From the NCBI RefSeq assembly GCF_900108295.1, contig NZ_FNWK01000001.1, positions 1,302,001 to 1,366,000 of the forward strand: DNA of 64,000 nt. Reading direction: 5' to 3'. The notes below the pieces were generated by a model. That model was not told the DNA's origin. It saw nothing but the letters and a program-made list of their open reading frames with translations, and did no database searches. Shown piece after piece: positions 36,967 to 57,300 of this stretch. Both the position numbers and the translations under genes were made by a program. The first letter of the stretch is position 1, and each line of letters starts with the position of its first letter. This stretch comes from Sphingopyxis sp. YR583 (GTDB taxonomy: Bacteria > Pseudomonadota > Alphaproteobacteria > Sphingomonadales > Sphingomonadaceae).

Positions 36967-38411
36967 TGCTGCAGGGCACCGGGTCCGACGTCGGCAAGTC
37001 GGTGCTCGTCGCTGCGCTGTGCCGCGCCCTGACCAACCGCGGCCTCACCGTCCGGCCATTCAAGCCGCAGAATATGTCGAACAATGCCGCGGTCACCGCC
37101 GACGGCGGGGAGATGGGCCGCGCGCAGGCGCTTCAGGCGATTGCGTGCCGCGCCGAACCGCACAGCGACATGAATCCGGTGCTGCTGAAACCGCAAGCCG
37201 ACCGCACCTCGCAACTGATCGTCCACGGGCGCGTCCGCGGGACGCTGGGCAGCGGCAATTTCCGCGAAGCGCGCGGCGCGCTGATGACCGAAGTGCTGGA
37301 AAGCTATGAGCGGCTGCAGAGTCAGTGCGATATCGTGATCGTCGAGGGTGCAGGGTCGCCCGCCGAGATCAATTTGCGCCAGGGCGACATCGCGAACATG
37401 GGCTTCGCGCGCGCCGCCGACGTGCCCGTCATACTGATCGGCGATATCGATCGCGGCGGGGTGATCGCGTCGATCGTCGGGACACGCATGGTGATCGAGC
37501 CCGAAGACGCGGCAATGATCCGCGGCTTCCTGATCAACAAGTTCCGCGGCGACCCCGCGCTATTCGATGATGGGTATCGCGAGATCGAGCGGCGAAGCGG
37601 CTGGGCGGCCCTTGGCGTCATCCCCTGGCTGAGCGCGGCCGCGCGACTGCCGAGCGAGGATGCGGTGATCCTCGAACGCCCAGCCGACCCGCGCGAAGGC
37701 CGCAAGCTGATCGCCTGCCCGATCCTGCCGCGCATCTCGAATTTCGACGATCTCGATCCACTGAAGCTCGAGCCGGGGGTCGAGATCGTCATGGTCCCGC
37801 CGGGCCGGCCGATTCCAGCGGAGACAGCCGTCATCATACTGCCCGGATCGAAGGCGACGATCGCCGACCTCGCCGCGCTGCGGGCCGAGGGGTGGGACAT
37901 CGACATCATGGCGCACCATCGCCGTGGCCGCCTGATCGTCGGGCTGTGCGGCGGATATCAGATGCTCGGCCATCGCATCGCCGACCCCTTGGGGATCGAG
38001 GGCGCTGCGGGAGACGTCGAAGGGCTCGGCCTGCTCGATGTCGAAACGACCCTTTCTCCCGCGAAGAGGTTGCGCCATGTGGACGGAACGGCGCTGGGGG
38101 CGCCGGTCGCAGGCTATGAAATGCACATGGGGGAAACGCGCGGACCCGGCACCGAAAGGCCCTTTGCCTTTCTCGAAGGCGCTGCCCGCGACGGCGCGAT
38201 CAATGCCGAAGGCAATGTGATCGGCTCCTATCTCCACGGCGTTTTCACCTCACCCGAACTGCGTCGGGCGCTACTCTCTCGAATCGGCGTCGCGGGTGGT
38301 GGGCGTGACTATGCGACCGACGTCGATGCCGCGCTCGACGACATTGCGGCCGAGTTTGCGGCACACGCCGATATCGATGCCATGCTGCGGATCGCGGGAG
38401 TCGGCGCATGA
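36954..38411 (+). CDS. cobQ: Cobyric acid synthase
   Basis: A 485-residue glutamine amidotransferase that amidates four carboxyl groups of adenosylcobyrinic acid a,c-diamide. The N-terminal dethiobiotin-synthetase-like P-loop is GTGSDVGKSVLVAAL, followed by FKPQNMSNNAAVT. The C-terminal amidotransferase domain shows LCGGYQMLGHRI with the nucleophilic cysteine and SYLHGVFTSPE with the catalytic histidine. Start is the ATG inside cbiB. Its substrate comes from the corrin-ring pathway, whose genes are not in this window. Confidence 0.95.
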   Translation: MAALMLQGTGSDVGKSVLVAALCRALTNRGLTVRPFKPQNMSNNAAVTADGGEMGRAQALQAIACRAEPHSDMNPVLLKPQADRTSQLIVHGRVRGTLGSGNFREARGALMTEVLESYERLQSQCDIVIVEGAGSPAEINLRQGDIANMGFARAADVPVILIGDIDRGGVIASIVGTRMVIEPEDAAMIRGFLINKFRGDPALFDDGYREIERRSGWAALGVIPWLSAAARLPSEDAVILERPADPREGRKLIACPILPRISNFDDLDPLKLEPGVEIVMVPPGRPIPAETAVIILPGSKATIADLAALRAEGWDIDIMAHHRRGRLIVGLCGGYQMLGHRIADPLGIEGAAGDVEGLGLLDVETTLSPAKRLRHVDGTALGAPVAGYEMHMGETRGPGTERPFAFLEGAARDGAINAEGNVIGSYLHGVFTSPELRRALLSRIGVAGGGRDYATDVDAALDDIAAEFAAHADIDAMLRIAGVGA

Positions 38412-38932
38412 GCCGGTCGTCGCTGTTCGTTCTCGGCGGCGCGCGGTCGGGCAAGAGTCGTTATGGACAGGGGCGCGCCGAAGCTGCGGGCAACGGTCTC
38501 ATCTTTGTCGCGACCGCCGAAGCCTTTGACGAGGAGATGCGCGAGCGAATCGCGCGCCACCGGGCCGACCGCGATGCGCGATGGACCACCGTCGAAGCAC
38601 CGCGCGACCTCCCCGCGGCAATCGATGCGCTGAATGAGAAGGACGCGATCGTCCTCGTCGATTGCCTGACGCTCTGGGTCTCGAATCTGCTGCTCGCCGA
38701 TGCCGACATCGCGCTCGCCAGCCGCCTATTATGTCAAACAATCAGCCGCTTCGAAGGAACGCTGATCCTTGTCGCCAACGAAGTCGGCCTTGGTATCGTG
38801 CCCGACAATGCGCTCGCGCGCGCATTCCGCGACGCAGCGGGACAACTCAACCAGTTAGTCGCGGCGACGGCGGACGAAGTGGTATTGCTCACCGCCGGAC
38901 TGCCCCTGACACTCAAGCCACGCGGGGGTTAA
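38408..38932 (+). CDS. cobU: Bifunctional adenosylcobinamide kinase/guanylyltransferase
   Basis: A 174-residue enzyme that phosphorylates and then guanylylates adenosylcobinamide. The P-loop is GGARSGKSRYGQ, the guanylylated histidine is in ARHRADRDARW, and VDCLTLWVSNLL and NEVGLGIVPDNALARAFRD are diagnostic. Also written cobP. It is the last gene of the riboswitch operon; the next start is 86 bp away. Confidence 0.96.
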   Translation: MSRSSLFVLGGARSGKSRYGQGRAEAAGNGLIFVATAEAFDEEMRERIARHRADRDARWTTVEAPRDLPAAIDALNEKDAIVLVDCLTLWVSNLLLADADIALASRLLCQTISRFEGTLILVANEVGLGIVPDNALARAFRDAAGQLNQLVAATADEVVLLTAGLPLTLKPRGG

Positions 38933-39018: not shown

Positions 39019-40092
39019 ATGAGAAAGCATGCCCATCTTGTCGTTGGCGAGTCGCGGTGGTTTCCTGTTTCCGCCGTCCTTGCCGCTGCTGCGCTGACAC
39101 CGTCGGCCGCCCACGCCTCATCGAAGCTGTTGAACGACAAGTCGTTGGCGGACAGCAAGGCGGCGTGTCCTGTCGCCGCGAGCTTTGCGCCGGCCGCGCG
39201 GGCGGACATCTCACGCGCCATATTGGGCGGCGCACCGAGCGCGCTCGACCGCATCCGCGCCGACCAGCAGGCCATTGCGGCGCCCGCGGTCACCCCGGCA
39301 TCGCCGATCACGGCCGGATTGGACGCTTTCCCCGTTCGCCATACGCTCGAACCCGCAAGCCGAACCCCGATCTCCTTTGCGCCTGCACCAAGCTGCGGGA
39401 CGCCGTCGAGTTTCGCGCCGCTGACCGAAACCGCCGAATATGACCCAAGCGCCGAGCTTGGCACCCGCGCGATCCCGGTCAAGCGCACACGCTTCGACGA
39501 TCGCTGGGATCATGTGCGCCGCGCGGCGCCCGCCGGACTGATGCAGAGCAAGCTGCGCAGCGCGAACGCCTCGTCGGGACTGGCAGAGCAGGATCTGCTC
39601 GCGCGCGTCAACCAGTGGGTCAATCGCGAGATCGCCTATGTGAACGACGACCGCAATTACCGTCAGCGTGATTTCTGGGCGACCGCCGAACAGACGCTCG
39701 GGCGCGGCAAGGGCGATTGCGAGGATTTCGCGATCCTGAAGATGCAGATGCTGCGCGCCGCCGGAATCGATGCCGACCGGATGAAGCTGGTGCTGCTCCG
39801 CGATCTTGCCGCAAACGCCGATCATGCCTTTCTGCTCGTCCAGACCGATGCCGGAAAGGTCGTGCTCGATAATGTGACCGACCGGCTATACGACGGCAGC
39901 CAGTCCAATTCGGTGCGCCCGGTGCTGTCGTTCAGCGAGAACCGACGCTGGGTCCACGCCTATCGCGGCACCCAGTCATCGCCAAATCTCACCGCAATTC
40001 CGGCGTCGCAAAAATCCTATACGCTGGCGCTCAACAATCAGCGTTCGGTGAGCGCCGATCCGCTGACCTTCAAGACCGGCTTCAGCAAGTAA
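39019..40092 (+). CDS. lapG: LapG-like periplasmic transglutaminase-type cysteine protease
   Basis: A 357-residue exported protein of the bacterial transglutaminase-like cysteine proteinase family. After a hydrophobic signal region (FPVSAVLAAAALTPSAAHA) there is about 100 residues of variable sequence, then the protease domain with catalytic triad C234 (GKGDCEDFAILK), H269 (ADHAFLLV) and D284 (VLDNVTDRL). LapG releases LapA-type adhesins from the surface when c-di-GMP falls. The last 55 bp overlap the 3' end of the convergent chimeric gene. No lapD-like c-di-GMP receptor is seen in the window. Intact by sequence; its present substrate is unclear. Confidence 0.88.
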   Translation: MRKHAHLVVGESRWFPVSAVLAAAALTPSAAHASSKLLNDKSLADSKAACPVAASFAPAARADISRAILGGAPSALDRIRADQQAIAAPAVTPASPITAGLDAFPVRHTLEPASRTPISFAPAPSCGTPSSFAPLTETAEYDPSAELGTRAIPVKRTRFDDRWDHVRRAAPAGLMQSKLRSANASSGLAEQDLLARVNQWVNREIAYVNDDRNYRQRDFWATAEQTLGRGKGDCEDFAILKMQMLRAAGIDADRMKLVLLRDLAANADHAFLLVQTDAGKVVLDNVTDRLYDGSQSNSVRPVLSFSENRRWVHAYRGTQSSPNLTAIPASQKSYTLALNNQRSVSADPLTFKTGFSK

Positions 40093-41321
40093 CTCAGCAC
40101 CGATTTCTTGCCGGTCACGATTTCGACATCGCATAGCATGCCCGGGGTGATCGGCAGCCGCCGCCCGTTCGAGGTAAGATAGCTGTTCGTCGTTTCGACA
40201 ACGACGGTGAAATAGGCCTGCCGCTCGACCTCGTCATAGATGCTGTCGGCCGACACGCGCACGACCTTGCCCTTGAGCCCACCATAGATCGAGAAATCAT
40301 AGGCGGTGACCTTGACGTTCGCAGGGTCGCCGACCTTGATGAAGGCGATATCGCGGGGCGTAACGCGCGTTTCGATCAGCAATTTATCGCCGAGCGGCAC
40401 GATCTGCATGATCTTTTCGCCCGCATTCACATTGTCGGTGACGACGACGGTGAAGGGATCGGTCAGATTGTTGTTCGCATTGGTGTTGTCGGTCAGCGTG
40501 TAGCTGTAACCGATATTGCCGGGCGTCAGGCTGGTGATCGTCAGCTGGCCGAGCGGCGTCGTGATGACCTGACCAACCGCCGTGATGGCGGTGCCGTTGA
40601 TCGTCAGCGTGTCGAGCCCGTCGCCAGCGTCATAGACGATCGAGCCGGTCGTGGTTTCGCTGTTCGCGGCGCTGTTGCTGCCGGCAGGCTCGTTGCCGCG
40701 CGCCGGCAGGCCCGCTTCGTTGACGCTTGCGGTCGCGGCGGCGACCCCCGCCGGCTGGTCGGGGGTGACGATGACGATCGTCGGTTCTTCATCGGGAACG
40801 TCGGGCAGCAGCTCGCGTTCTTCGGGCTGCGGAAAGGCAAGCTGCGTGTAGGGCAGCAGGTCGCCCAGCGCATAGGCATCCTGGATCGGGCCTTCGGGGT
40901 CGGCGAAATTGCCGCCCGAGCTGCGGACGCCGGCTTCGGGGTTCAATTCGCCGAGATTTTCCAGCAGCTGTGCGACCGTGCTCGCCGGCACGGTATCGCC
41001 ATCGACGACGATTGCCGGAACATCGACCGCGCCGCCGGGAATGATGAATACCTGTCCGTTCGGCAGCGTGATGACAAGGTCGGTGCCCGATATGGTGATG
41101 TCGTCGATCGACGCACCCGCGGGCAACACGATCCGGCCGCTGGCATCGGGAACGAGGATCGCCTGGATCGCCAGCGGCATGGCCGTGGCGGCGGCGGTGA
41201 CATTCGCTGCGGCGGTCAGAAACTCGCCGCCCGCGACGGCCCGGTTCGACGGCTCGCTCGATGCGCTGTCGCGCTCGGGACCGGTCATTCCATTCCGCGC
41301 CGGATTGTCGAAAGCATCCAT
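40038..41321 (-). CDS. Chimeric protein: LapA-type adhesin N-terminus fused to T1SS membrane-fusion-protein C-terminus
   Basis: An open frame of 427 residues made from two unrelated parts. Residues 1-180 resemble the membrane-retention region of sphingomonad giant type I adhesins (VITLPNGQVFIIPGGAVDVP; GDTVPASTVAQLLENLGE; PEGPIQDAYALGDLLPYTQL), and 224-296 form one VCBS-like repeat (SIVYDAGDGLDTLTINGTA; GYSYTLTDNT). From about residue 297 the sequence becomes the C-terminal domain of a HlyD/LapC adaptor: GEKIMQIVPLGDKLLIETRV, TPRDIAFIKVGDPANVKVTA, YDFSIYGGLKGKVVRVSADS. The adaptor lacks its membrane helix, lipoyl and coiled-coil parts; the adhesin lacks its body and secretion signal. The join is near 40425-40440. 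The start has GAGGGAAATTGAC upstream. Probably a deletion relic, expression unknown. Confidence 0.85.
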   Translation of the reverse strand: MDAFDNPARNGMTGPERDSASSEPSNRAVAGGEFLTAAANVTAAATAMPLAIQAILVPDASGRIVLPAGASIDDITISGTDLVITLPNGQVFIIPGGAVDVPAIVVDGDTVPASTVAQLLENLGELNPEAGVRSSGGNFADPEGPIQDAYALGDLLPYTQLAFPQPEERELLPDVPDEEPTIVIVTPDQPAGVAAATASVNEAGLPARGNEPAGSNSAANSETTTGSIVYDAGDGLDTLTINGTAITAVGQVITTPLGQLTITSLTPGNIGYSYTLTDNTNANNNLTDPFTVVVTDNVNAGEKIMQIVPLGDKLLIETRVTPRDIAFIKVGDPANVKVTAYDFSIYGGLKGKVVRVSADSIYDEVERQAYFTVVVETTNSYLTSNGRRLPITPGMLCDVEIVTGKKSVLSYLLKPVLKVSGSALTER

Positions 41322-41813
41322 GTCAATTTCCCTCGAACGCACCTCGCCCTGCCGCAAAAGCGGCACAGCAAAATTGTCACCAATGTCAGTGCGACCCACT
41401 GTCCGAGCGACTCGGACCTTCCCCACCCATTAGGAAGCATGGATTCTCGAGACTCCGCAAGCGCGTTAACACATTTTTAGCAATGGCTAATTTGTGCCGA
41501 ACGGCTGCACATCGAGGTCCAGCTGAAAAAATGAAATACGATGCTTATTCAATGCTATAAAATTGAGCAGAGAAGCTGATCATGGGGTGAGGCAATTCAA
41601 GACGCGTCCCAATTCGAACCATAACTTAACGCGGCTCGTCGCAAACATTTGCCGCACATCGTGGCCGATTGGCCCGATTCTTTGCGCCCTGCCAACTTAG
41701 CGAAACGCAGCGGGGCACGAGTAAGACGCCCCGCTTGCACCACTGAAAATCGCTTGGGAAAAAATGCAATATTAAAGGTTCTGCGCGATGACTGTTCGCT
41801 TGAGGAGGTGTTG
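41322..41813. other. AT-richer intergenic region between the chimera and the PilZ gene
   Basis: About 490 bp without a convincing gene. The stretch 41440-41660 is clearly richer in A and T than the surroundings (for example TTAACACATTTTTAGCAATGG and ATAAAATTGAG), as expected for promoters of the divergent chimera and PilZ genes. Short open frames here lack ribosome sites and family resemblance. Confidence 0.6.
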
Positions 41814-42337: not shown

Positions 42338-45300
42338 TCAGAAGCGCACCCGGAACCCGGCGCTACCCTTCAGATTATATCCCGCGCCAAAGTCGGCCAT
42401 CGCGGTATCGCCCGACACTTCGGTATAGAGGGTGAAGCGATCATCGCCCCAGCTATAGCTGCCGCCCAGCCCCAGTTCGCCCGACAGGCGGTGCTCGCGA
42501 TGGGCGATCGGCGTGCCCGATACGTCGGAGACCGCACCGTCGAGCCACTCATAGCCGAGGTTCAGGACGGTATAGAGACGCGTGCGGCGCGTATCGCCCG
42601 CGCGGCCCTTCCAACTCGCCTGATGATCGATCGCCAGACCCCAGCGGGTCTTCAGGCTTTCGCCCTTCGCGACCGAAACTGCGGCCATTGAAGGATCGGC
42701 GAACCGATCGAAATCGACCTTCGCATAGCTCATCTGGACCTGCGGCGTGATGCTGAGGTTGCGGCCGATTGCCGTCTGCTTGCCGAGTTCGAGGCTGAAG
42801 GCCTGGCCGTCGCCCTTGTTACCGCGGGCGAGCGATCCGAGGATATTGGATTCCAGATCGCTGTCGAACCAGCTGAGTTTGACCTGACCATCGGCATAAA
42901 AGCCCTGCGGCCCATACCAGGTCATCGTCGCACCGACGCCATAGCCCTGCGTGTCGATGGCGCCATTGCCAAAGATCGACGCGACGCTGCTGTCCGCCTT
43001 GCCATAATGTGCGGTCAGCCCGCCGACGAGCGCGGCGCCATCGCTGCGTTCTGCCAGCACCGCATCGAGCCCGAGCTGCGCCTGCCACTGGTCGACCTTG
43101 CGGTCGGTATCGCTTGTCGAGACGAGCGCGTCGGGACGCTGGCGTTCGGATTCGAACCGGCCCCACAGACCCGCACCGGCGATCGGTGATGCCGCCCATG
43201 AGCGGTTGCCGACACGCTGTTGCAGCGTCGGCAGACGATTGAGCGATTGCAGCGCGCCAACATAGGCCTCGTAAACCGGGACGCCCGGCTGATAGAGCGG
43301 GCCTTGCGGATTTTCGCCCGCGAGCAGCGCCGAGCGCAGATACCAGTCACCGTCCTGCGGCGTCGAAACGCCATTCTTGTACAAGCGATAGCCATAAGCG
43401 CCAACGACCACCGCCTGCTCGCCGTCGAACAGATAGTCGCCATCGAGCGTGAAGGTGCCGTTCGATGCACCCGCAACGTCGACGATCTTGATGCCGTCGA
43501 CCGTCGGGGCGCCGGCGCCGCCGCGATTGACAACGGTAACCCGCGTATTGCCCGAGGTCGCGCCGTTCACGATCAAGCGATCGGCCTGCGACATATCGCC
43601 GCCGAGCGCGGCCTCGATCTCGAGCACGCCGCCGTTGCCGGTATAGTCGCCCGCGACGGTCAGCGAACCGATACCTTCGCCCGGCGCAACGACGCCCGCG
43701 TTGACGAGGCTGCCGACGCGGCCCGCGCCTTCGAGGCGGCCCGCGGAGCCGACGGTGACCGCGCCGCCGAGGCTTCCCTGCACGGCGAGCGTGCCGCCGG
43801 CAACGGCCGTGCTGCCAGCAAAGCCGCTGTTATCGGCGGTAACGCGCAGCGTGCCCGCGCCATTTTTGGTCAACCCGCCCGTGCCCGAGAAGAGGCCGTT
43901 GTATGTGAAGACCGTGCCGGCCGCAGTCGCGATCGCACCGCCGCCTGCCACAACAAAACCGCGCGCACTGGTGAGGTCGGCGCTCGTTTCGAGCGTGCCG
44001 CCGTCGAGCGTCACCGCACCGCTAGCCGCGCCGAGATTGGCGTCGCGCGAGATACGAAGCGTGCCGCCGACGATCTGCGTGCCGCCGGTGTAGGCGTTGG
44101 CGCCGCCAAGGACGAGCGTTCCCGCGTCGGTCTTGACCAGCCCGGCCGCGCCGGTGAGCGCAGAATTGATCGTCGCGGTGAAACCCGCGCCCGCCGCGCT
44201 GCCGTCGCCAACGCGGACCGTCGCCGTGGCATCGGTCAAGGCGATGTCGCCACCGGTGATCACATAATTGTTCGCCGCGAACTGCATGCCCGCGACCGAC
44301 ACGGCGCCAAGGCTGTTGTCGACCGTGACTGTCCCGCCGGTGCCACCGAATATGGCAAAGCCCCCGTCGGTATAGCCAGCGTTTACGGCGCCATCTTCGC
44401 CGGTCCAATTGTCATTGCCGAAGCTTGCCTGCCAAACACCGTTTCCGCCGTTGATCGTGCCATTATTCTTGGGTCCGGCTGCGCCGTCCCAGAAATTGAG
44501 TGTCAGTCCCGCCGAATTGACGAGATTGACCTGGCCCGCGATCGACGTCTGGACATTGGCGTTGGCGCCCGCCGGCATGGTGCCGAGCGTGATGCCGTTG
44601 TTGGTAAGCGTGCCGCCATAGTTGAACATGCGATAGACGCCGACGTCGAATGCGCCGCCCGTCGGAACCCCCACGTTGAGCACGCCGTCGAGGACGAGGT
44701 TACCGCCGACGTTGACGAGGTCGTTAAGCGTACCGCCCACCGCGCCGGCCTCACCAAATTCGAAATCGAGCTGCGTCGTCGCCGACAGCGACAGATTGCC
44801 GCCGATCGTCAGCGTGCCCGCCGCTCCGGCGCCCGGAGCGAGCACGGCGCCGTTGGCCAGCGTGACGTTGCCACCGACCGTGCCGGTGCCGCCCAGTACA
44901 GCGCCGGCGAGGACATTGGTGGCGCCCGTCGCCGCGGCATAGTTGCCGTTGACGAACATCGTGCCGTTCGCGACCGTTGCGCCGCCGTAGGTACCGATGC
45001 CGTCCAATACCAGCGTACCGCTGCCGCTCTTGGTAAAGTTGCCAGTGCCCGAAAGCGGACCGGCAAGCGTCAGCGTCGTTCCCGCGCCGGTCTGGAACCC
45101 ACCGCTGCCGATCAGATCGATGCTACGAGCCAACGAGAGGGTCGCCGTCGTTTGCAACGTGCCGCCGTCGAAGCGAATCGCACCGCCGGCGGCGCCCAGA
45201 TTGGCGTCGGTGCCGATCTGTAACGTGCCGCCATTGATCGACGTCCCGCCCGCATAACTGTTGCTGCCAGCCAGGACGAGCGTGCCTGCGTCGGTTTTGA

Positions 45301-48300
45301 CCAGCCCGGCCGCGCCCGCGAGTTCGGCGTCGATCGTCGCGACATAGGCAGCACCCGCAGCAGTGCCGTCGCCGACGCGGATCACAGCCTGCGCGCCATC
45401 CAGCGTCAACGTGTCGCCGGTGATCAGGTAACCGTCGGTCGCGAATTGCAGGCCCGACGCCGACACCGCGCCAAGGCTGTTGTCGATTGTGACGGTTCCT
45501 GCGCTGCCCGAGAAGATGGCAAAGGCGCCATCGTCATAGCCCGCGTTGACCGCGCCGCTGATATCGGACCAATTGTTGTTGCCGCCGCTGTTCTGCCACA
45601 CGCCGTCACCACCGTTTACCGCATTGTCGAACTTCGGCCCGGCGGCGCCGTCCCAGAAGTTGAGCGTCGCGGCGCCGATGTTGATCAGGTTCACTTCACC
45701 CGCAATCGATGTCTGCACCTGCGCATTGGCGCCGGCTGGCAACGTACCGAGGGCCAGACCGTTGTCGGTGAGCGAACCGGCATAATTGGCGATGCGATAA
45801 AGGCCTATATCGAAGGCGCCGCCAACGGGCACCGTCACATCGAGCGTGCCGTCGAGCACAAGATCGCCGCCAATGTTGATCACATCATTAAGTGGGCCGC
45901 CTACGTCGTTCGCGCGGCCGAATTCGAAGCCGAGCGTCGCGCCCGCCGCGAGTGCGAGATTGCCGTTGATCGTGAGCGTGCCGGGCGCATTCGCGCCCGG
46001 GGCGAGCGTCGCGCCGGTGTCGACGAACACATTGCCGCCGATGATGCCCGATCCGCCCAGTGTCGCGCCTGCGCCCACGTTGGTTGCGCCCGTCGCGGCC
46101 GATTGGTCTCCATTCACGAGCAGGGTGCCCGCACTGACGCTCGTCGTCCCGGTATAGCTGTTGCTGCCGGTCAGGATCGTGGTGCCCGCGCCGTTCTGGT
46201 CGACCGAACCGCTGCCCGAAATCACGCCCGCGAAGGTCTGTGTGTCAGTACGGCTGAAGACGAACAGGCCATTGTTGACCACATCACCGGTGATCGAGCC
46301 CGAGGTGCCGCCGTCGCCGACTTGCAGCGTGCCGGCCGATATCGTCGTACCACCCGTGAAAAGATGGTCGCCGGTGAGGATCGTCCTTCCCGAACCCATC
46401 TGTTCGAGTGAACCGCCGCCGGTGATCAGGCCGGCAAAGACCCTGTCGTCCGACCGGTTGAACGCGAGAATGCCGTCGTTGACGATATCGCCCACGATCG
46501 CGCCACTCGTCCCGCCGCCACCGATCTCCAGCCGTCCGGCAAGGATCGACGTGCCGCCGGCATAATCATTGTCCACTGTCAGGGCGAGCGTGCCCGCGCC
46601 GTCCTTCGTCAGGTCGCCTGCGCCAGAGATCATACCCGCAAGCGTCAGGCCGGCGTCGGTCAGGAAGGTTCCGCTGCCGACGAGGTCGACCGCACGGCCC
46701 GACACGACATCGGCAGTCGTGTGCAGCGTACCGCCGCCGAATGCCAATCCCCCCGCCGTGTCACCAAGATTGGCGTCGGACGCAATTCGGAGTGTGCCGC
46801 CATTGATCGCCGTGCCGCCAGCATAGCTGTTGGTTCCCGACAGGACGAGCGTCCCCGCGTCGGTCTTGACCAGCATCGCCGTCCCGGTCAGGTCGGCGCC
46901 GATCGTCGCGGTATAGCCCGCACCCGCGGCACTGCTGTCGCCGACCTGGACGATCGCCTGCGCGCCGGTCAGCGTTAGTGCGTCCCCCGTCAGCACATAG
47001 CCGTCGGCTGCGAACTGCATGCCCGACGCCAGAACATTGCCGCCGCTGTTGTCGATCGTCACGGTGCCCGGTGCCGCCGCGAAGATCGCGAAGCTGTCCT
47101 GCGCATAATCGGCGTTGATCGTACCGTTGGCGTCGGTCCAATTGTTCGAGCCACCGGCGATGCGCCACACGCCGTCACCGCCGTCGAGCGTACCGTCATG
47201 CTTCGGCCCGGCCGCACCGTCCCAGAAGCTGAGCGTCAAGCCTTGCGAATTGACGAGGTTCACCTGTCCCGCGATCCCGGTCTGGACCGAAACGCCCGCA
47301 GCGCCGCCGGGGATCGTCCCCAGCGCCAGTCCGTTGTCGGTCAGCGCGCCGCCATAGTTGAAGACGCGGTAGATGCCGGGTCCGAAGGTGCCGCCCGCCG
47401 ATGTCGAAACATTGATCGTCCCGTCGAGGATCAGGTCGCCGCCGACATTGACCAGATCGTTGAGCGCGCCGCCCGCGACATTCGCCTGTCCGAACTCATA
47501 GTCGAGGATCGAACCGCCCGCGAGCGACAGGTTTCCGTTGATGGTCAGGGTTCCGGCGCTTTGGCCCGGCGCAAGGATCGCCCCGCCCTGCATGACGACA
47601 TCGCCGCCGATCGTGCCGGTCCCGCCAAGCGTCGCGCTCGAAAAGACCGTTGTGAGGCCGGTCGCGGCCGACTGGTCGCCGTTGACGAACAGGGTGCCCG
47701 CGTTGACGAGCGTCGCCCCCGCATAGCTGTTCCCGCCAGTCAGCGTCAGGGCGCCAAGGCCGTCCTTGGTCAGCCCGCCCGCGCCGGTGAAGCGCGGAGC
47801 GACGCCGATGTCGTGGCCGTCGGTGTCGATGATTCCGCCGTTTGCGCCGAGCGTGATGTCGTTCGCGCCGAAATCGACGAAAAATGCGGCTTCATCCTGC
47901 GTCGCGCGCAGCACGCCGCCATCGAGCGAGAAGTCGACGGTGCCAAGCCCGCCGCCGATCTGGCTGGTTTCGACGATGCCGCGGTTGCCCGCGGCACCGG
48001 TGACGGCGACGGTCCCGCTCGCGCCGGCCGCGAGGCCGAGTGCGAAGCCGCCTTCGGCGCGGACGAGCCCGCCATTCTCGACCAAAAGCGAACCGGTGCC
48101 GTCATTGCCGACGGTCATCGAGAAATCGGTGACCAGCCAGTTCGAGCCGGCCCCGGTCACCACGGCACTACCGACGGCATTGGCGCCGATATAGCCCTGG
48201 TTGCTCGATACGCTCGCACCGTTTTCGATGCGTAGCGAGCCGGCGCCGAAGCTGCCGATATTCAGTTGCTGGCTGTTGACCCAAGAAGTACCCGTACCGG

Positions 48301-51300
48301 AGACGACCGCGTCGCCCTGCGCTGAGCCGCCGACGATGCCGTCATTGCTTGTAACGCTGGCGCCACCTTCGATGCGCAGCGTTCCGGTGCCGAACAGGCC
48401 GACGTTGATCCGCCCGCTGTTGTCCCACGACGAGCCCGCGCCGCTGACAAGCACCTCGCCCAAGCTGTCGCTGTTGCCACCGACCTGGCCCCCGACGCTA
48501 ACGACCTTGCCGCCGTCGGTGATGTTCAACGTCCCGTTGCCGTCGTAACCGACAAACAGGTCGGCATTGTTCATCCAGGTCGAGGCGACGCCATTGGTAC
48601 CGACGCCCGAGACGTTGACGATGCCTTGCGCACCGGCATTCGACCCGATCCAGCCCGACTGGTTGCTGACCTGGCCGCCGGCGGTGATGTTCAGCGTACC
48701 GCTACCGAACTCGCCGATGACGATGTCGCTCGCCCCGGTCCATGTCGAGGCATTGCCGCTCGCACCCTGTCCCGAAACCGTGACCGTGCCCTGACCGCTT
48801 ATATCATCGCCGATATAAGCGATGTCAGCGACCGTCACGATGCCGCCGTCGAGGATGTTGAGTGTGCCGGTGCCGAGGCGGCCAACGCGGAGGATACCCG
48901 TGTTGGTCCATGTCGAAGCATTGCCGCCCGCGTCCGTCCCGGTGACGGTGACGATGCCCTGCTCACCGCCATCGCGGCCGATCATGCCCTCCGCGTTGGT
49001 CAGCGTGCCGCCATTTGCGAGCCGCAACTCGCCGCCGCGCACATTGGTCTCGCCGACGAAACTGCTGGTGCCGGTCAGCACCAGCGTGCCGAGATCGCTT
49101 TTGATGACATCGCCGATGCCCGAGAGGTTCGTCGCGATCGTCGCGATATAGGACGCGCCGCCGATCGAACCATCGCCGACGCGAATGACCGATTCCGGCG
49201 CAACGAGCGCGATGTCGTCGCCCGCGATGATATAGCCATCGCTGGCGAACTGCATGCCCGAAGCCGCGACAGCGCCGAGCGAGCCATCGACGGTCACCGT
49301 GCCGCCGACGCCCGAGAAGACCGCGAAGGCATCGTCGGTGAAGGGCGCGTTCGCCGAACCGTCATATTCGGTCCAGTTGTCGTTGCCGCCGCTGGCCTGC
49401 CACAAACCGTCGCCGCCGGTGATTACGCCGTCATTCTTGCCGCCGTTGACGCCGTCCCAGAAACGCATGGTGAGGCCAGTCGTGTTGACCAGATTGACCT
49501 GGTTCGCGACCGAGGTCTGGACGAAATAGCCCGAATCGGCGGTCAGACCGTTGTCGGTCAGCGACCCGCCATAGTTGATGATGCGATAGAGGCCCGGATC
49601 GAAGCTGCCGCCCGGGGGCACGGCAACATTGAGCGTGCCGTCGAGCGTCAGGTCGCCGCCGACCTCGATCAGGTCGTTGAGCGCGCCGCCGACGACGTTC
49701 GCCTGACCGAAATCGACGTTGAGTGTCGCAGCCGAAGCAAGGCTCAGGTTGCCGGCGATCGTCAGCCGTCCTGGAATCCCGCCGATATCACCCGGATTGA
49801 GGTTGCCGTCGAGGATCGCGACATTACCACCAATCGTCCCGGTACCGCCGAGCGTGCCGCCCGTTGCCACATTGATCAGGCTCGCCGCGCCGCCAAGCGT
49901 GCCGTCGACCAGCAGCGTGCCGCCCGCGACCGACGTCGTGCCGGTAAAGACCGAGCTGTCGCCGGTCAGGCGGGTGGTGCCCGCCGCATGGTTGATACTA
50001 CCCGCGCCTGAGATGGCGTTGGAGAAACCATAGTCGGTGCCGGTGTGATTGAAGTTCAGTTCGCCCGTGCCGGGTCCGAAGGCGATCGCGCCGGTGAGGA
50101 AGCCCGCGGCCGCCGCAGCGTCGCCCGCAACCCCGCCGATGTTGAGACTGCCCGCCGCCCCAGCGCTGTTCGCGAGAATCAATGTCCCACCCACATCGAC
50201 CCGCCCGCCGTCGGTTAGCGTCAGCACACCCGTGCCGTTCCCGCTGCCGATGACCAGATCGCCCGTCGTGGCGAAACGGGAAGTTGCTCCCGACACGGAC
50301 AGGCTTGCCGCTTGCGGTGCCGCCCCGAAGGTCGCCGACGTAAAGCTGGCCGCGCCGCCCTGATCGACACTGAAATTGCCCGCGGTCATCAGCAGCGAAC
50401 TGCCGCTCGTCCAATTGGAACCGGTGCCGGTGATCGTGACTGCAATGGGGTTGGTATTGCTGGTCGTCAAACCGATCTGGCTCGCACCCGCGGTTCGCAG
50501 CATGCCGCCGGCGCTGATCGTCGTACTGAACGGCGCGTTGAAGCTGGCGCTCCCCTGAACCCCGCCTGCAAGATCGGCCAGCGAGTTCGCGCCATCGACG
50601 TTGAACTGAACGGCGGCAGTCAGAGCTCTGAGGTTGAGATCGCCGGTCGTGGTCCGGAGCGTGCCGCCGTTCGTAACCAGCACGATGGTCGAGCCGTTGC
50701 CCGCTATATTCCCGCCAATCGCTGCAGTGCTGAACTCCGATCCCGCACCGTCGACGCTCAGCGTCGAGCGACCCATCGTTGTCGAGCCGCCCGAAGCGAC
50801 CTTTGCACCGCCGGCGATACGAAGCTCGCCGCCCACACCATTGACCCTCGTCCCACCGCCATAGTTGCTGTTGCCAGTCAGCGTCGTCACGCCTGTACCG
50901 ACGATGTCGAGGAAGCCGGTGCCGGTGATCGCCCCCGCATAGGTGTAGGCATCCGCACGGCCGAAGCGCAGCGTCCCGTTATTGACCACGTCGCCCACGA
51001 TCGAGGCGGTGGTGTTGCCGCTGAAGCTGCCGATGAAGAGTATGCCGTCCTGAATCGTCGTGCCGCCGGTGTAGCTGTTCGCTTGCCCAAGCTGGAGCGT
51101 ACCCGCGCCAAGCTTGGTCAGTCCGCCACTGCCCGTCACTCCATTGGAAAGGATGGCGGTCGTCGTGGGATTGGTGACCTCGATCGCGCCGCCGGCTGCG
51201 CCCAGATCGAACGCGCGCGCGCTGGAGAAGGTGAGGTCGGTCAGCCGCAACGTGCCGCCATCGAGCGTGACCCCGCCGGTGCCCAAGAAGCTGTCTGCGC

Positions 51301-54300
51301 CCACCGAAAGCACGCCGCCGTTGATCAGCGTGCCGCCGGTGTAGCTGTTTGCCGCGGCCAGCACCAACGTACCGGCGTCGGTCTTGACCAGTTGCGACGC
51401 ACCGCTGAGGTTGGCGGCGATCGTCGCGGTAAAGTCTGCGCCCGCCGCGGTGCCGTCGCCCACGCGGATCAGCGATTGCGGGCCTACAAGCGTCAGCGGC
51501 GCGCCGTTGATCGTATAGCCGTCGGTCGCGAACTGCATGCCCGTCGCGGTGACCGCGCCGCCGCCGTTATCGACCGTGACCGTGCCCGGAGCGCCCGCGA
51601 AAATGGCATAAGTGCCATCGGCATAAGCGGCGTTGATGCTGCCGTCCGCGCCCGTCCAGTTATTGTCGACGCCGCCGAGGTGCCAACTGCCGTTGCCGCC
51701 GTCGATCGCATTGTTGAACTTGGGGCCCCCGGTGCCGTCCCAGAAGCTGAGCGCCAAGCCATCGCTGTTGATCAGATTGACCTGACCCGCGACCGAGGTC
51801 TGGACGGTGACATTGCTGCCCGCAGGCATCGAACCCAGCGTCAGCCCGTTGTCGGTGAACGTGCCGCCATAGTTGAACACGCGATAAAGGCCGCCGCCGA
51901 AATTGCCCCCGGGCGACACACTGACGTTGATCGTGCCGTCGAGTGTCAGATTGCCGCCGACGTTGACGAGGTCGTTGAGCGGGCCGCCCGCAACATCGGC
52001 CTGCCCGAATTCGAAGTTGAGCACCGAACCGCCTGCAAGCGACAGGTCGCCATTGATATTGAGTGTGCCGGGGCTGTTGCCCGGCGCAAGGATGCCGCCG
52101 TTCAGCACATTGACGTTGCCGCCGATCGTCCCACTGCCCGCCAGCGTCGCCCCCGACGCCACGGTCACAAGACCCGTCGCCGCCGACTGGTTGCCGTTGA
52201 TACGCAGCGTACCGGCGTTCACATCGGTCGCGCCGGCATAGCTGTTGTTGCCGCCGAGCGTCAGAATGCCGGCGCCCGACTTCGTGAGGCCGCCCGCGCC
52301 CGAGATCAGTCCGTTCAACGCAAAGGTCGTTCCGGCGTCGGTGAGGATTGTTCCGGTACCGGTCAGGACACCGTTTCGTGCGCTTGCGAAGGATGCGGTG
52401 GTGCGCAGCGTGCCGTTCGAGAAGGCGAGGCCGCCCACCGCTGCGCCGAGATTGGCATCGGCCGACACCTGCAGAGTGCCGCCGAGGATCGATGTCCCGC
52501 CAACGTAGCTGTTGATACCCGACAGAACCGTCGTACCGCTGCCGATCTGCCGCACGACACCGCTGCCGGATATCGTCCCGGCAAAGTTGACGAGGTCGGA
52601 GCGGTTGAACACGAATGCGCCATTGTCGACGACGTCGCCGACGATGCTGCCCGTCGTCCCGCCATTGCCGAGTTGGAGCGTACCCGCATCGATCGTCGTG
52701 CCGCCGGTGTAGCTATTGGTGCCGGTGAGGACGGTCGTCCCCGTCCCCGCCTGACGCAGCGAGCCGGTGCCGACGATGTGTCCACCATAGGCGAGCAGAT
52801 CGCTGCGATTGAAACCGAGCGTGCCGAAATTGTTCACGAGCGCGCTGGCGATCGAACCGGTCGTGCCGCCGCCGCCGACGAACAGCGTGCCGCCGTTGAT
52901 GTTGGTCGAGCCGGTGTAGCTGTGGTTGCCGGTCAACACCCATGTGCCGCTGTCGTTCTTGGCCAGCGTCGTGACGCCCGTGCCGGCATTGCCGATCGAC
53001 CCCGCGAGCGTGTTGTTGCCGCCATTGGTGCCGCCGAGCGCGATCGTCCGCGCCTGGTTGTTGCTCGCCAGCGTTACCGGCCCGGTGTCGGTGAAGACGA
53101 TCGCGCCGGTGCCCGACGATTCGATGAAGGTCACGCCTGCCGACAGGGTGAACAGCCGGTTGGTCGTGTCGCCCGCGCCGGTATAACGCAGCGTCGATCC
53201 GTTACCGATCACAAGGTTCGCCGCGGCGCTGGAGGAAGCCCCGATGCTGCTGGCGAGTCCGCCGTTGGAAAGCTTGTCGACGCCGAGCACGCCGCCGCTG
53301 ATCGTGGTGATGCCGGTATAGGTGCTGCCCGGATTCGTCAGAATCCACGTGCCGGCGTCGGTCTTGGTCAGGCGTGTTACGCCGCTGCCATTGTTCGTGA
53401 TCTGCGCGGCAAGGATATTGTTCGCCGTACTTGTGCCACCCAGTGTCAGCGTCTGCGCGGTGTTCGCGCTGGCGAAGGTCAGCGGCCCGGCGTGGGTGAA
53501 GGCGATCGCGCCGGTACCGGACGCATCGAGCTTGCTCGCCGTCGAGGCGCCAAGGGTGAACTGGCGGTTCGTGCTTCCGCCGGACCCGACATATTGCAGC
53601 GTACCGCCGCTCAGCACGAGGTTGTTCGCCGCCGATGACGACGAACCGATCGAGCTGTTCGCACCCCCATCGTCGAGACAGGCTACCGCGAGAATGCCCT
53701 GATTGATGACGGTCGAGCCGCTATAGCTGCTCGAACAGTTCGACAGTTGCTGATAGCCGCCCCCGGTCTTGACCAAGCCGCCGCTGCCCGAAATGGCGCC
53801 GCCGAAAATGACCCCCGTGCTGCCGCCGTTGGTGATGGTCAGCGTCGCGTCGCCCAACGCGACCGCGCCGCCCTGCAAGCCGCCCGTCGTGAACAAAAAG
53901 GCGACGCTATTATCATATCCGTCGAGGTCGAGGGTCGTGCCCGGCGCATTTTCGAACTGAATCCCGCCGCTGCCGAGCGCGGTAGTCGATCCGGCGCGGA
54001 GCGTCCCGCCATAGATTCGCACCGACCCGGTCGAACTGTTGTTGCCGGACAGGAGAAGCGTGCCGGCCCCCGATTTCTGAAGCTGGCCGCCGCCGGTGAT
54101 GTTACCCGAAAATTCGAGCACGGTGCCGGCATTGACGATGTTGAGCCCGCCGTTTCCGTTCAAGGCGAAACCGCGATCGGTCGAAGCGCTGGCGCCGGTA
54201 TAGGCCAGCGACCCCGTCGCGAAAACGAGGTTCGATGCCGCCGCCGTCGACGCGCCGATACCGCTCGCCTGCCCGCCGTTTGCGATGCAATCGATCGCGA

Positions 54301-57300
54301 CATTGCCGCCGATCGTCGTCACGCCGGTGTAGTCGTTATTGCAGCCGCTGAACGTCTGAGTGAAGCTGCCGATGCGCGTATAGCCGCCGGTGCCAGAAAT
54401 GCGGCCCGTGAAAACGCCGCTGCCGCTGCCCGTGGTCAGCGTGCGTCCGCCAAGATCGATCTGCCCGCCGCCGATGACGGCGGCAAAGCCAAGATCGAAG
54501 CCCCCGAGATCCAGCGTTCCGCCGCTGTTGACGGTCATGTTGCGGCCGCCCGGACCAAATGCGCGCGCCGATCCGGCGCGCAGGACGCCGCCGTTCACGA
54601 TCGTGTCGCCGGTGTAGCTGTTGGTGCCGCTGAGGATGAGCGTGCCCGCGCCGTCCTTGAACAACGTCCCTGCGCCCGCGGCGACGCCGCCGATCGTCAG
54701 CGTTGTCGCCGCGTTGGCGACGTCGATACCGCCCTGCCCGGCCGCGAGCGTAAAGCCGCGGTCGATGGCGACCGTGCCGCCAGTATATTGCAGCTTCGCC
54801 CCGTTGCTGATGACGAGGTTTGCCGAATCGCTGCTTGCTGCGCCGATGCCACTTGCGATGCCACCGTCGGAAAGCGTGTTCACCGAAAGCGTGCTGTTGC
54901 CGGCCGACGTCTGGGTAATCGTGGTGACGCCGACATAATCATTGGCGGCATTCGACAGGACCAGCGTGCCCCAGCCGGTCTTGGTCAGTCCCGCGTCGTC
55001 GGGACTTGTGACCAGCCCCGAAAACTCGACCGTACGCCCGGTCTCGACCTGGATCGCGCGCTCGGCGCCACCGTTGACGAGCGTGATGCCGCGATCGGTG
55101 ACCGCGTCGACGCCGCCGGTATAAGCCAGCGTGCCGCTTTCGAGGACGAGATTTGCCGCGTCGGCGCTCGACGCGCCGATGCCGCTCGCGATACCCCCAT
55201 TGGCCAGTTGCGCGACCTCGAGGCGGCCGCCGCTCAGCGTCGTGCCGCCCGTATAGCTGTTGGCCGCACTCAGCCGGACGGTGCCACCGCCGCTCTTGGC
55301 AAAGCTTGTTGCACCGCCATTGTCGACGATCGTCGAGGCGATGGTCAGCGCGCCCGTGCCATTATGCTGAACGCCGAGCGTCCCGCCGCCGGCGCTGCCG
55401 GTCAGAGAGCCACCGGTAATGAGCTGATTGGTCGCCGCGGTGCTCGGCGCGACGATGATCGTGCCGTCGATGCCCAGCCTGTTGCCGGCGCCGATCGTCA
55501 CCGTCGATCCCGATGCGGCAGTGTAGCGCAGGCCGCCGAGTTGGACATCTCCGGTCACGGTGCCAAAGAAGGGTGAGTTCGCGGCGCCCGCAGTATCGCT
55601 GATGATATCGCCATCCGCCCAGGTGCCGGCATCGTCCTTCGCCGTGTAATCGCTGGCATCAAAGGCGAGGATGCCGCCGCCGACGACCTTCGCATAATCC
55701 GATCCGTTGATCGTCGCCCAGCCGCCGAGCACGCCGTCGGCATTGCTCGTCGTAATCGCGCCGCCCGTCGGCAGCACGAAATTGACCAGACCGCCCGCCC
55801 GGACGATCGCGCCGAGATTGAGGTTCACGATACCGCCCGCACCACTGACCGCGCGGACGGTGTTGCTGCCCGCGCTGACTGTCAGGCCGTTGAAACTCTG
55901 ATTGTTGGTCTCGCCCGCCGCACCGACCACCTCGAGCGTACCGCCCGTCAGGACGAGCGCCGAGGATGCCGACACGATGTTGTTGACCGGGCCGCCCGCG
56001 CCCGAGAAATCGAGCCCGAGCCGACCGCCGCCGACGGTCGTCGCGCCGGTGTAGCTGTTCGCGCCCGTCAGGGTCAGCGAGCCTGCCCCCGTTTTCCTGA
56101 GCCCGCCGCTGCCGATGATGCTGCCGCCAAAGACCTGCGCCGTCTTGGCATCGACCGTCAGCGTCTGCGCGCCGAGCGAAACCGTTCCGCCACTTCCCGT
56201 AAGCGACGGCGCGACGAGGTCGAATCCGCCCAAGTCGAGCGTACCGCCGTTGACGATGAAACCGGTCGCGGCACCGAATGCCCCCGCGATGCCCGCGCGC
56301 AATGTCCCGCCGTTCACGGTCACGGTGCCCCGCTGGACATTGGCGCCGCCCAGCACCCATGTGCCCGCGCCATCCGCAACGAGATTGCCGTTGCCCGACA
56401 TGACGCCGGAGAAGATGTTGGTGCCCGCAAAACTACCGCCGAGCGTCAGCGTGTCGGGGTTGGGGCTCGCCGCGTTGAAGACAAGCGCGCCCGACAGGTT
56501 CAGTGCGCCGCTGCCGTTGTTTTGAATTGCATTGGCGGGACCATTGACGAGCCATTCGCGATTGCTGGCATCGCCGGCGCCGCCATAGCTGAGCGTCCCG
56601 CTGATGAGACTGATGGTCGTGCCCGCGCCGAGCGAACTCTCGCTGCCAATATCAGCGAGCTTGCCGACGCGGATTTCGCCTGCGAGCGCCGCCACGCCAG
56701 TGAAGGTGTTTGCGTTACCCAGCTGAACATGGCGCCCGGCCGAGGCGTTGAAAGCATAATTGCCACCGCTCAATATTCCTAGCAGACGGAAATCTGCGTT
56801 CTCTGCGTAAAATCCGCCACCCGCCGAAATATCGATGTCGCCCGTGATTTCGAGCGTTCCCGTGCCCTGATTGCGGACGAGCCCCGCATCGCCGTTGATA
56901 TCCCAGTTGCGGTTCGAGCTGTCGCCGTCGCCGAGATAGATGATGCTGTCACTATACTGGCTGGACTGGTTGAAGATGATCGTTCCGTCGGCGACCGTCA
57001 CCGGCGCGCCGAGCGAACTCGCTTCACCTAGATTGCCGATCGAGGTGAATCGGGTCGAACATGTACCATTGCAGCCCTGAAAAACGGTGCGGCCCGTATA
57101 ATCGCTGAGATTGTTGCTCATCGTGATGCCGCTGGCGGCAAGCTGAACCGAACCATTGCCCCGGATGCGGGCGGCGCCCGATCCGGTTCCCTCAAGGATC
57201 AAATTGCCGCCGTTGCCGATCGTCACGATCCGCGACGTGCTCGCACCGGCAATCGACAATCGGACATTCGAGGCGGCCGCGGTGAAAATGCCGTTGCCCG

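Follow-up and report, generated by a model that had tools for sequence, protein, structure and literature searches.

A giant-adhesin start and a LapC adaptor end share one in-frame join in four scattered Sphingopyxis genomes

How does a single open frame come to begin as a giant adhesin and end as a secretion adaptor, and what keeps it open? The question arises from a minus-strand gene in a 64,000-nucleotide stretch of Sphingopyxis sp. YR583 (contig NZ_FNWK01000001.1, positions 1,302,001 to 1,366,000; hereafter the window), which an earlier note had described as an in-frame adhesin/adaptor chimera of 427 codons with a change of identity near 40425-40440. ORF calls combined with TIGR01843 and HlyD_3 profile searches and matches to adhesin starts confirmed this description and placed the change at codon 297/298 (Table 1). 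Because full-length matches exist in three other genomes, chance can be ruled out as the source of the frame, and the gene is a real chimera of a LapA/BapA-like adhesin start and the C-terminal part of a HlyD/LapC adaptor.

Table 1 Features of the fused locus, with positions in the window
Feature	Position	Strand	Basis
cobU	38408..38932	+	ORF and profile searches
LapG-like protease gene, convergent, single copy in 12/12 genomes examined	39019..40092	+	Peptidase_C93, E 5.7e-21
Fused gene, 427 codons plus stop	40038..41321	-	ORF call; full-length matches in G048, G006 and G027
LapC/HlyD-derived part, codons 298-427	40038..40430	-	TIGR01843, HlyD_3
Join, codon 297/298	40429..40433 (about)	-	17.4-20.3 kb at this place in eight intact relatives
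Adhesin-derived part, codons 1-297 (N-terminus, weak BapA-prefix-like stretch, first repeat)	40431..41321	-	Match to adhesin starts
5' leader of the adhesin operon, conserved and retained in fused genomes	41322..41481	-	20 aligned leaders
PilZ-domain gene, divergent neighbour, predicted start codon	41649..42302	+	PF07238, E 5.4e-11; match in 12/12 loci

The fused gene and the operon it replaces

The ATG start of the fused ORF is preceded by GAGG, and the frame stays open for another 35 codons upstream, as far as a GTG at 41426. Residues 1-297 are 65-96% identical to the adhesin starts of 21 further genomes of the genus. In 18 of these the match lies within an open frame of 2919-5009 codons, and the remaining three frames (G069, G055 and G033; 759-1955 codons) reach contig ends. 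The BapA-prefix profile matched residues 71-94 weakly (14 bits, cut-off 35), and intact orthologs of this locus likewise scored below the cut-off. From codon 298 on the sequence is that of LapC, and the later repeats, the adhesin body and the C-terminal type I export end are missing. The LapC-derived part comprises the complete C-terminal 130 residues of the adaptor, with 96.9-99.2% identity to the intact LapC of eight relatives: residues 298-427 match positions 293-422 of the 422 positions of TIGR01843 (E 4.7e-44), and HlyD_3 matches residues 293-394 (E 8.3e-12), while the membrane anchor, hairpin and lipoyl parts (TIGR01843 positions 1-292) are absent. As the gene holds only part of an adaptor, its TIGR01843 score is expected to fall short of the curated cut-off for the whole protein (151 versus 208.65 bits). 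No signal peptide was apparent by eye. With neither an adhesin C-terminus nor an adaptor N-terminus, the product is unlikely to be secreted; judged from its sequence, it would stay in the cytoplasm and leave the cell adhesin-minus. The earlier suggestion of a periplasmic protein thus finds no support in either the start of the protein or the part of the adaptor that was kept.

The LapG-like protease, cobU and PilZ neighbours are as previously described. The lapG gene overlaps the tail of the fused gene by 55 bp, and its product scores above the Pfam cut-off for Peptidase_C93 but misses the NCBIfam LapG equivalog cut-off (86 versus 320 bits). At the 12 loci compared below, cobU and cobD were each matched in 11 and cobQ in all 12. 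A search for LapD (PF16448) gave no match in the 12 genomes, nor in any of 14 controls. The leader of the adhesin operon, about 160 bases before the start codon, has a mean column identity of 84% among the 20 aligned sequences; its predicted fold contains 31 pairs, six of them with two-sided changes, with a small covariation term (-1.05). It is possibly a regulatory leader RNA, and an Rfam search of 41322-41481 returned no match at E<=1. Farther along, a repetitive minus-strand frame of 5176 codons (42338-57868) looks autotransporter-like by eye, and a counterpart of it is found upstream of pilZ in G024.

Twelve loci were compared, namely those of the window (G000), three other fused genomes and eight genomes with an intact operon. 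In the intact loci a divergent PilZ gene is followed by genes for the adhesin, an OmpA-like protein, a TolC-like protein, an LssB-type ABC transporter, a cell-wall hydrolase and LapC, and then by the convergent lapG. These assignments come from domain searches with G024 proteins (G062 for OmpA alone), in which the ABC transporter matched TIGR03375 at 714 bits and LapC matched TIGR01843 at 354 bits. As the earlier note expected, the adhesin and LapC pieces lie on one strand in all eight intact relatives; they are 17.4-20.3 kb apart, and one deletion from this operon yields exactly the fused product. The block absent from the window holds the adhesin body and the OmpA-like, TolC-like, ABC and cell-wall-hydrolase genes. 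An ortholog of the ABC transporter (90-100% identity) was found in 8/8 intact and 0/4 fused genomes, the best matches in the latter being paralogs at 31-33%; a search of the source genome found no copy elsewhere, in line with the prediction that the transporter had gone with the deletion, and no second HlyD relative at E<=1. The ends of the missing block carry no repeats, and their microhomology is 1-3 bp. Local similarity of the ends was within background (200 windows per genome; lowest fraction 0.155 for direct and 0.045 for inverted similarity). A repeat-mediated deletion is therefore ruled out.

One join in several species

Among 80 genomes representing species of the genus, the full-length fusion is present in four, namely the source genome (G000), G048 (96%), G006 (94%) and G027 (94%). 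A protein search added a fifth fused protein, P0003, which has 428 aa and is 90% identical over residues 1-297, and placed the OAS728 protein in a cluster with 22 member sequences. The frame is open at 427-428 aa in all five fused sequences, and all five join identical codons: adhesin VVTD or VIVTD, then N or R, then LapC VNAGE, K or Q, and IMQ. In the four fused DNAs the breakpoint on the adhesin side follows the first G of the GAC GGC codons, and that on the LapC side follows TATG. Three fused genomes have AAT as the final adhesin codon and G006 has CGC, and the first LapC codon of G048 is GTC, as in the intact G040. Outside the genus, a survey of 397 genomes of the family, the source included, revealed no further full-length match (E<=1e-70; four candidates scored per genome). 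Of 72,556 plasmid records, 1413 matched, each at less than 60% identity, and in none did a single place cover 80% of the query. No adhesin-LapC fusion is described in the titles and abstract beginnings of the literature matches listed.

This distribution bears on two explanations raised in the earlier note. Collapse of a long repetitive gene during assembly would suit the length and repeats of the intact adhesin genes. However, the same join occurs in four assemblies, including that of G048, a single contig of 4,919,217 bp, all four genomes lack the ABC ortholog, and a collapse within repeats would not be expected to extend to LapC; we regard this explanation as hardly credible. A recent relic private to the source genome would fit the anatomy of the deletion itself, but is very improbable given the full-length gene in G048, G006 and G027 and in P0003; the four fused genomes do not form one clade. 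The same hybrid in separately placed species instead suggests an old adhesin-off allele that has been kept or exchanged, not a one-off accident.

In a tree of rpoB and gyrB (22 genomes, 6015 columns), the four fused genomes require four changes, and a single fused clade is rejected (p-AU 9.6e-63); G027, for instance, groups with the intact genomes G028 (93/92) and G062 (100/100). As strong support is limited to 7 of the 19 inner branches, and as gyrB itself may have been exchanged, we used the rejection of the clade and not the exact species tree. Trees of the 12 genomes also reject a single fused clade for the adhesin half (N, p-AU 0.0019), the LapC half (C, 0.0029) and lapG (0.0001), and one vertically inherited fused clade is thereby ruled out. 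G048 and G006 are sisters in the N (98/97) and lapG (93/99) trees, so the separate placements number at least three and not necessarily four. The C half of G048 groups with the intact G040 (95/93).

Sequences upstream of pilZ differ among the fused genomes, each being shared with an intact genome: G000 with G024 (75%, repetitive), G048 with G062 (88%), G027 with G028 and G043 (95%), and G006 with G040 (100% over 4.27 kb). Matches between fused genomes in this region are limited to 83-87 bases, in G048 and G006. The 4.27 kb shared by G006 and G040 (L022, L036), two otherwise divergent species, holds integrase-like frames by eye and is probably a mobile element acquired recently beside the locus. 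The G000 leader is mosaic, with both ends like G024 and a middle identical to that of G048 and G006. Left of the join, G000 and G048 differ at one of 60 and five of 120 bases, which makes them the one pair of six with a shared block, on this side only. Right of the join, each of the six fused pairs shows 4-8 differences in the first 60 bases and is no closer there than elsewhere. Near-identical flanks would be expected after a recent spread of one fused allele; as they are seen only to the left in G000-G048, and the right flanks are unlike, recent spread is disfavoured.

The adhesin system as a whole is patchy in the genus, as 33 of the 80 genomes have neither ABC nor lapG. lapG is present in 47 and the ABC transporter in 41 (14 candidates scored per genome for the latter), and all 41 ABC genomes have lapG. 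The six genomes with lapG and no ABC are the four fused ones, all with an intact lapG, plus G001 and G039. These two have a full-length open LapC (421 and 419 aa) and no match to residues 1-297, which rules them out as further fusions; such remnants can thus persist as open frames once the exporter is lost, and openness alone does not prove function. For the same genus-wide counts, the presence of lapG is little guide to what the chimera does. A single in-frame TAG interrupts the lapG matches of G078, G025 and G005. Among the 12 genomes, BapA-prefix adhesins above the cut-off occur in G048, G024, G043 and G040 and in none of G000, G006 and G027; G000 has one further match under the cut-off.

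Selection on the frame and origin of the allele

A branch codon model (own script) was applied to the four fused terminal branches, using trees disturbed by recombination. Omega was 0.050 for the adhesin half (G000 0.034, G048 0.026, G006 0.081, G027 0.042) and 0.014 for the LapC half, and fixing omega at 1 on these branches cost 129 and 37 lnL units, respectively. Intact sister branches gave practically the same values (N, 0.0501 fused versus 0.0500 intact; C, 0.014 versus 0.006, a difference of 0.4 lnL units), and lapG had an omega of 0.088 on fused branches and 0.147 elsewhere. Synonymous changes in N amount to 0.10-0.22 per codon on the fused branches, which makes a prolonged period of neutral evolution unlikely. 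Neither relaxed selection nor selection specific to the fusion is evident in the fused frame, a pattern compatible with selection on the chimera, with a very young deletion or with arms renewed from intact alleles.

The earlier note had named a conserved fused family under purifying selection as the finding that would speak against its view. Half of this held, as the same 427-residue gene recurs without relaxed selection, which may reflect a function of the chimera, a young deletion or renewal of its arms by recombination. The corresponding explanation, that the chimera has its own cytoplasmic or regulatory role and has been under purifying selection since one old fusion, draws on the five open frames, the rejection of neutrality and the retained leader. 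We nevertheless consider it rather improbable, because omega is the same on intact sister branches, LapC also stays open at full length without the ABC transporter in G001 and G039, no fused-specific residue is common to all four genomes, and the tree placements would need exchange with intact alleles anyway.

Another explanation is that a targeted or hot-spot process has recently deleted the operon again and again between one pair of bonds, leaving independent identical scars. It would explain why the fused genes are ungrouped in the species-marker, N, C and lapG trees, why the bases next to the join differ as they do in different intact parents (AAT or CGC; GTG or GTC) and why little flank is shared, and recency would account for the open frames, the equal omega and the intact lapG. 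On the other hand, the ends show neither a repeat nor long microhomology nor unusual similarity, no recombinase or mechanism was identified, and G048 and G006 group in N and lapG as they would under inheritance. With ends of this kind, repetition of an identical join by chance is not credible, and a targeted process strikes us as unlikely.

We therefore favour, at a probability of roughly one in two, a single old deletion allele, adhesin-null, that exchanges its arms with intact alleles by recombination. In this reading, a LapA-type adhesin operon would have lost about 17-20 kb in one illegitimate deletion that preserved the frame and took the adhesin body and C-terminal end, the OmpA-like, TolC-like, LssB-type ABC and cell-wall-hydrolase genes and the LapC N-terminus, and the resulting adhesin-minus allele would now be carried by several Sphingopyxis species. 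Its arms, one with 0.9 kb of adhesin and the other with 0.4 kb of LapC plus lapG, are still homologous to intact loci, such that ordinary homologous recombination could replace a deleted allele by an intact one or the reverse and refresh the arms, keeping the frame open and species-like and the join unchanged. The selected effect would most likely be the loss of a costly surface adhesin and not the chimera, which, without the adhesin export end and the membrane-anchoring half of the adaptor, presumably remains in the cytoplasm. The identical join in 4/80 genomes and P0003, amid upstream contexts that differ and are each common with an intact genome, speaks for a single origin, and the mosaicism of the G048 C half and the G000 leader is why we prefer exchanged arms to targeted deletion. 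The near-identical left flanks of G000 and G048 and the 4.27 kb common to G006 and G040 are further signs of exchange. Three observations count against the old allele. A shared block at the join is seen in one fused pair of six, and there on the left side alone. Exchange must reach within a few bases of the join, given the CGC codon of G006 and the G040-like GTC codon of G048, and an old loss of the presumed substrate would not predict an intact lapG in all four fused genomes.

More tentatively, an unrecognised targeted process may have cut out the operon repeatedly between one pair of bonds, or the adhesin-off allele may have been kept across species boundaries for the age of the group with its arms exchanged right up to the join; this broader proposal is a doubtful one. 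If either were true, surface attachment would be subject to a genus-wide on/off polymorphism that rests on a single fixed junction. The occurrence of the same exact in-frame scar of a giant-adhesin operon in four scattered species, beside intact relatives and without relaxed selection, offers a test case for whether populations switch attachment by trading deletion alleles, for the reach of homologous recombination in moving an indel from one species to another, and for the reasons why a chimeric gene may remain open without necessarily having a function.

Comparison with known systems

Like the giant adhesins of the LapA/BapA type, the fused gene has codons 1-297 colinear with the intact adhesin starts of the genus and the same leader, but it lacks the body, the later repeats and the C-terminus, and its BapA-prefix score stays below the cut-off. 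It shares with HlyD/LapC adaptors (TIGR01843) the complete C-terminal 130 residues and lacks their N-terminal and middle parts. The operon losses in G001 and G039 are similar in that the ABC ortholog is absent and the LapC C-terminus and lapG are kept, whereas their LapC is full length and no chimera is formed. LapG, LapD and LapA form an adhesin release circuit, as outlined in PMC6890996. As in that circuit, a LapG-like protease gene adjoins the locus in all 12 genomes; unlike LapA, the fused product would, from its predicted domains, have no export route.
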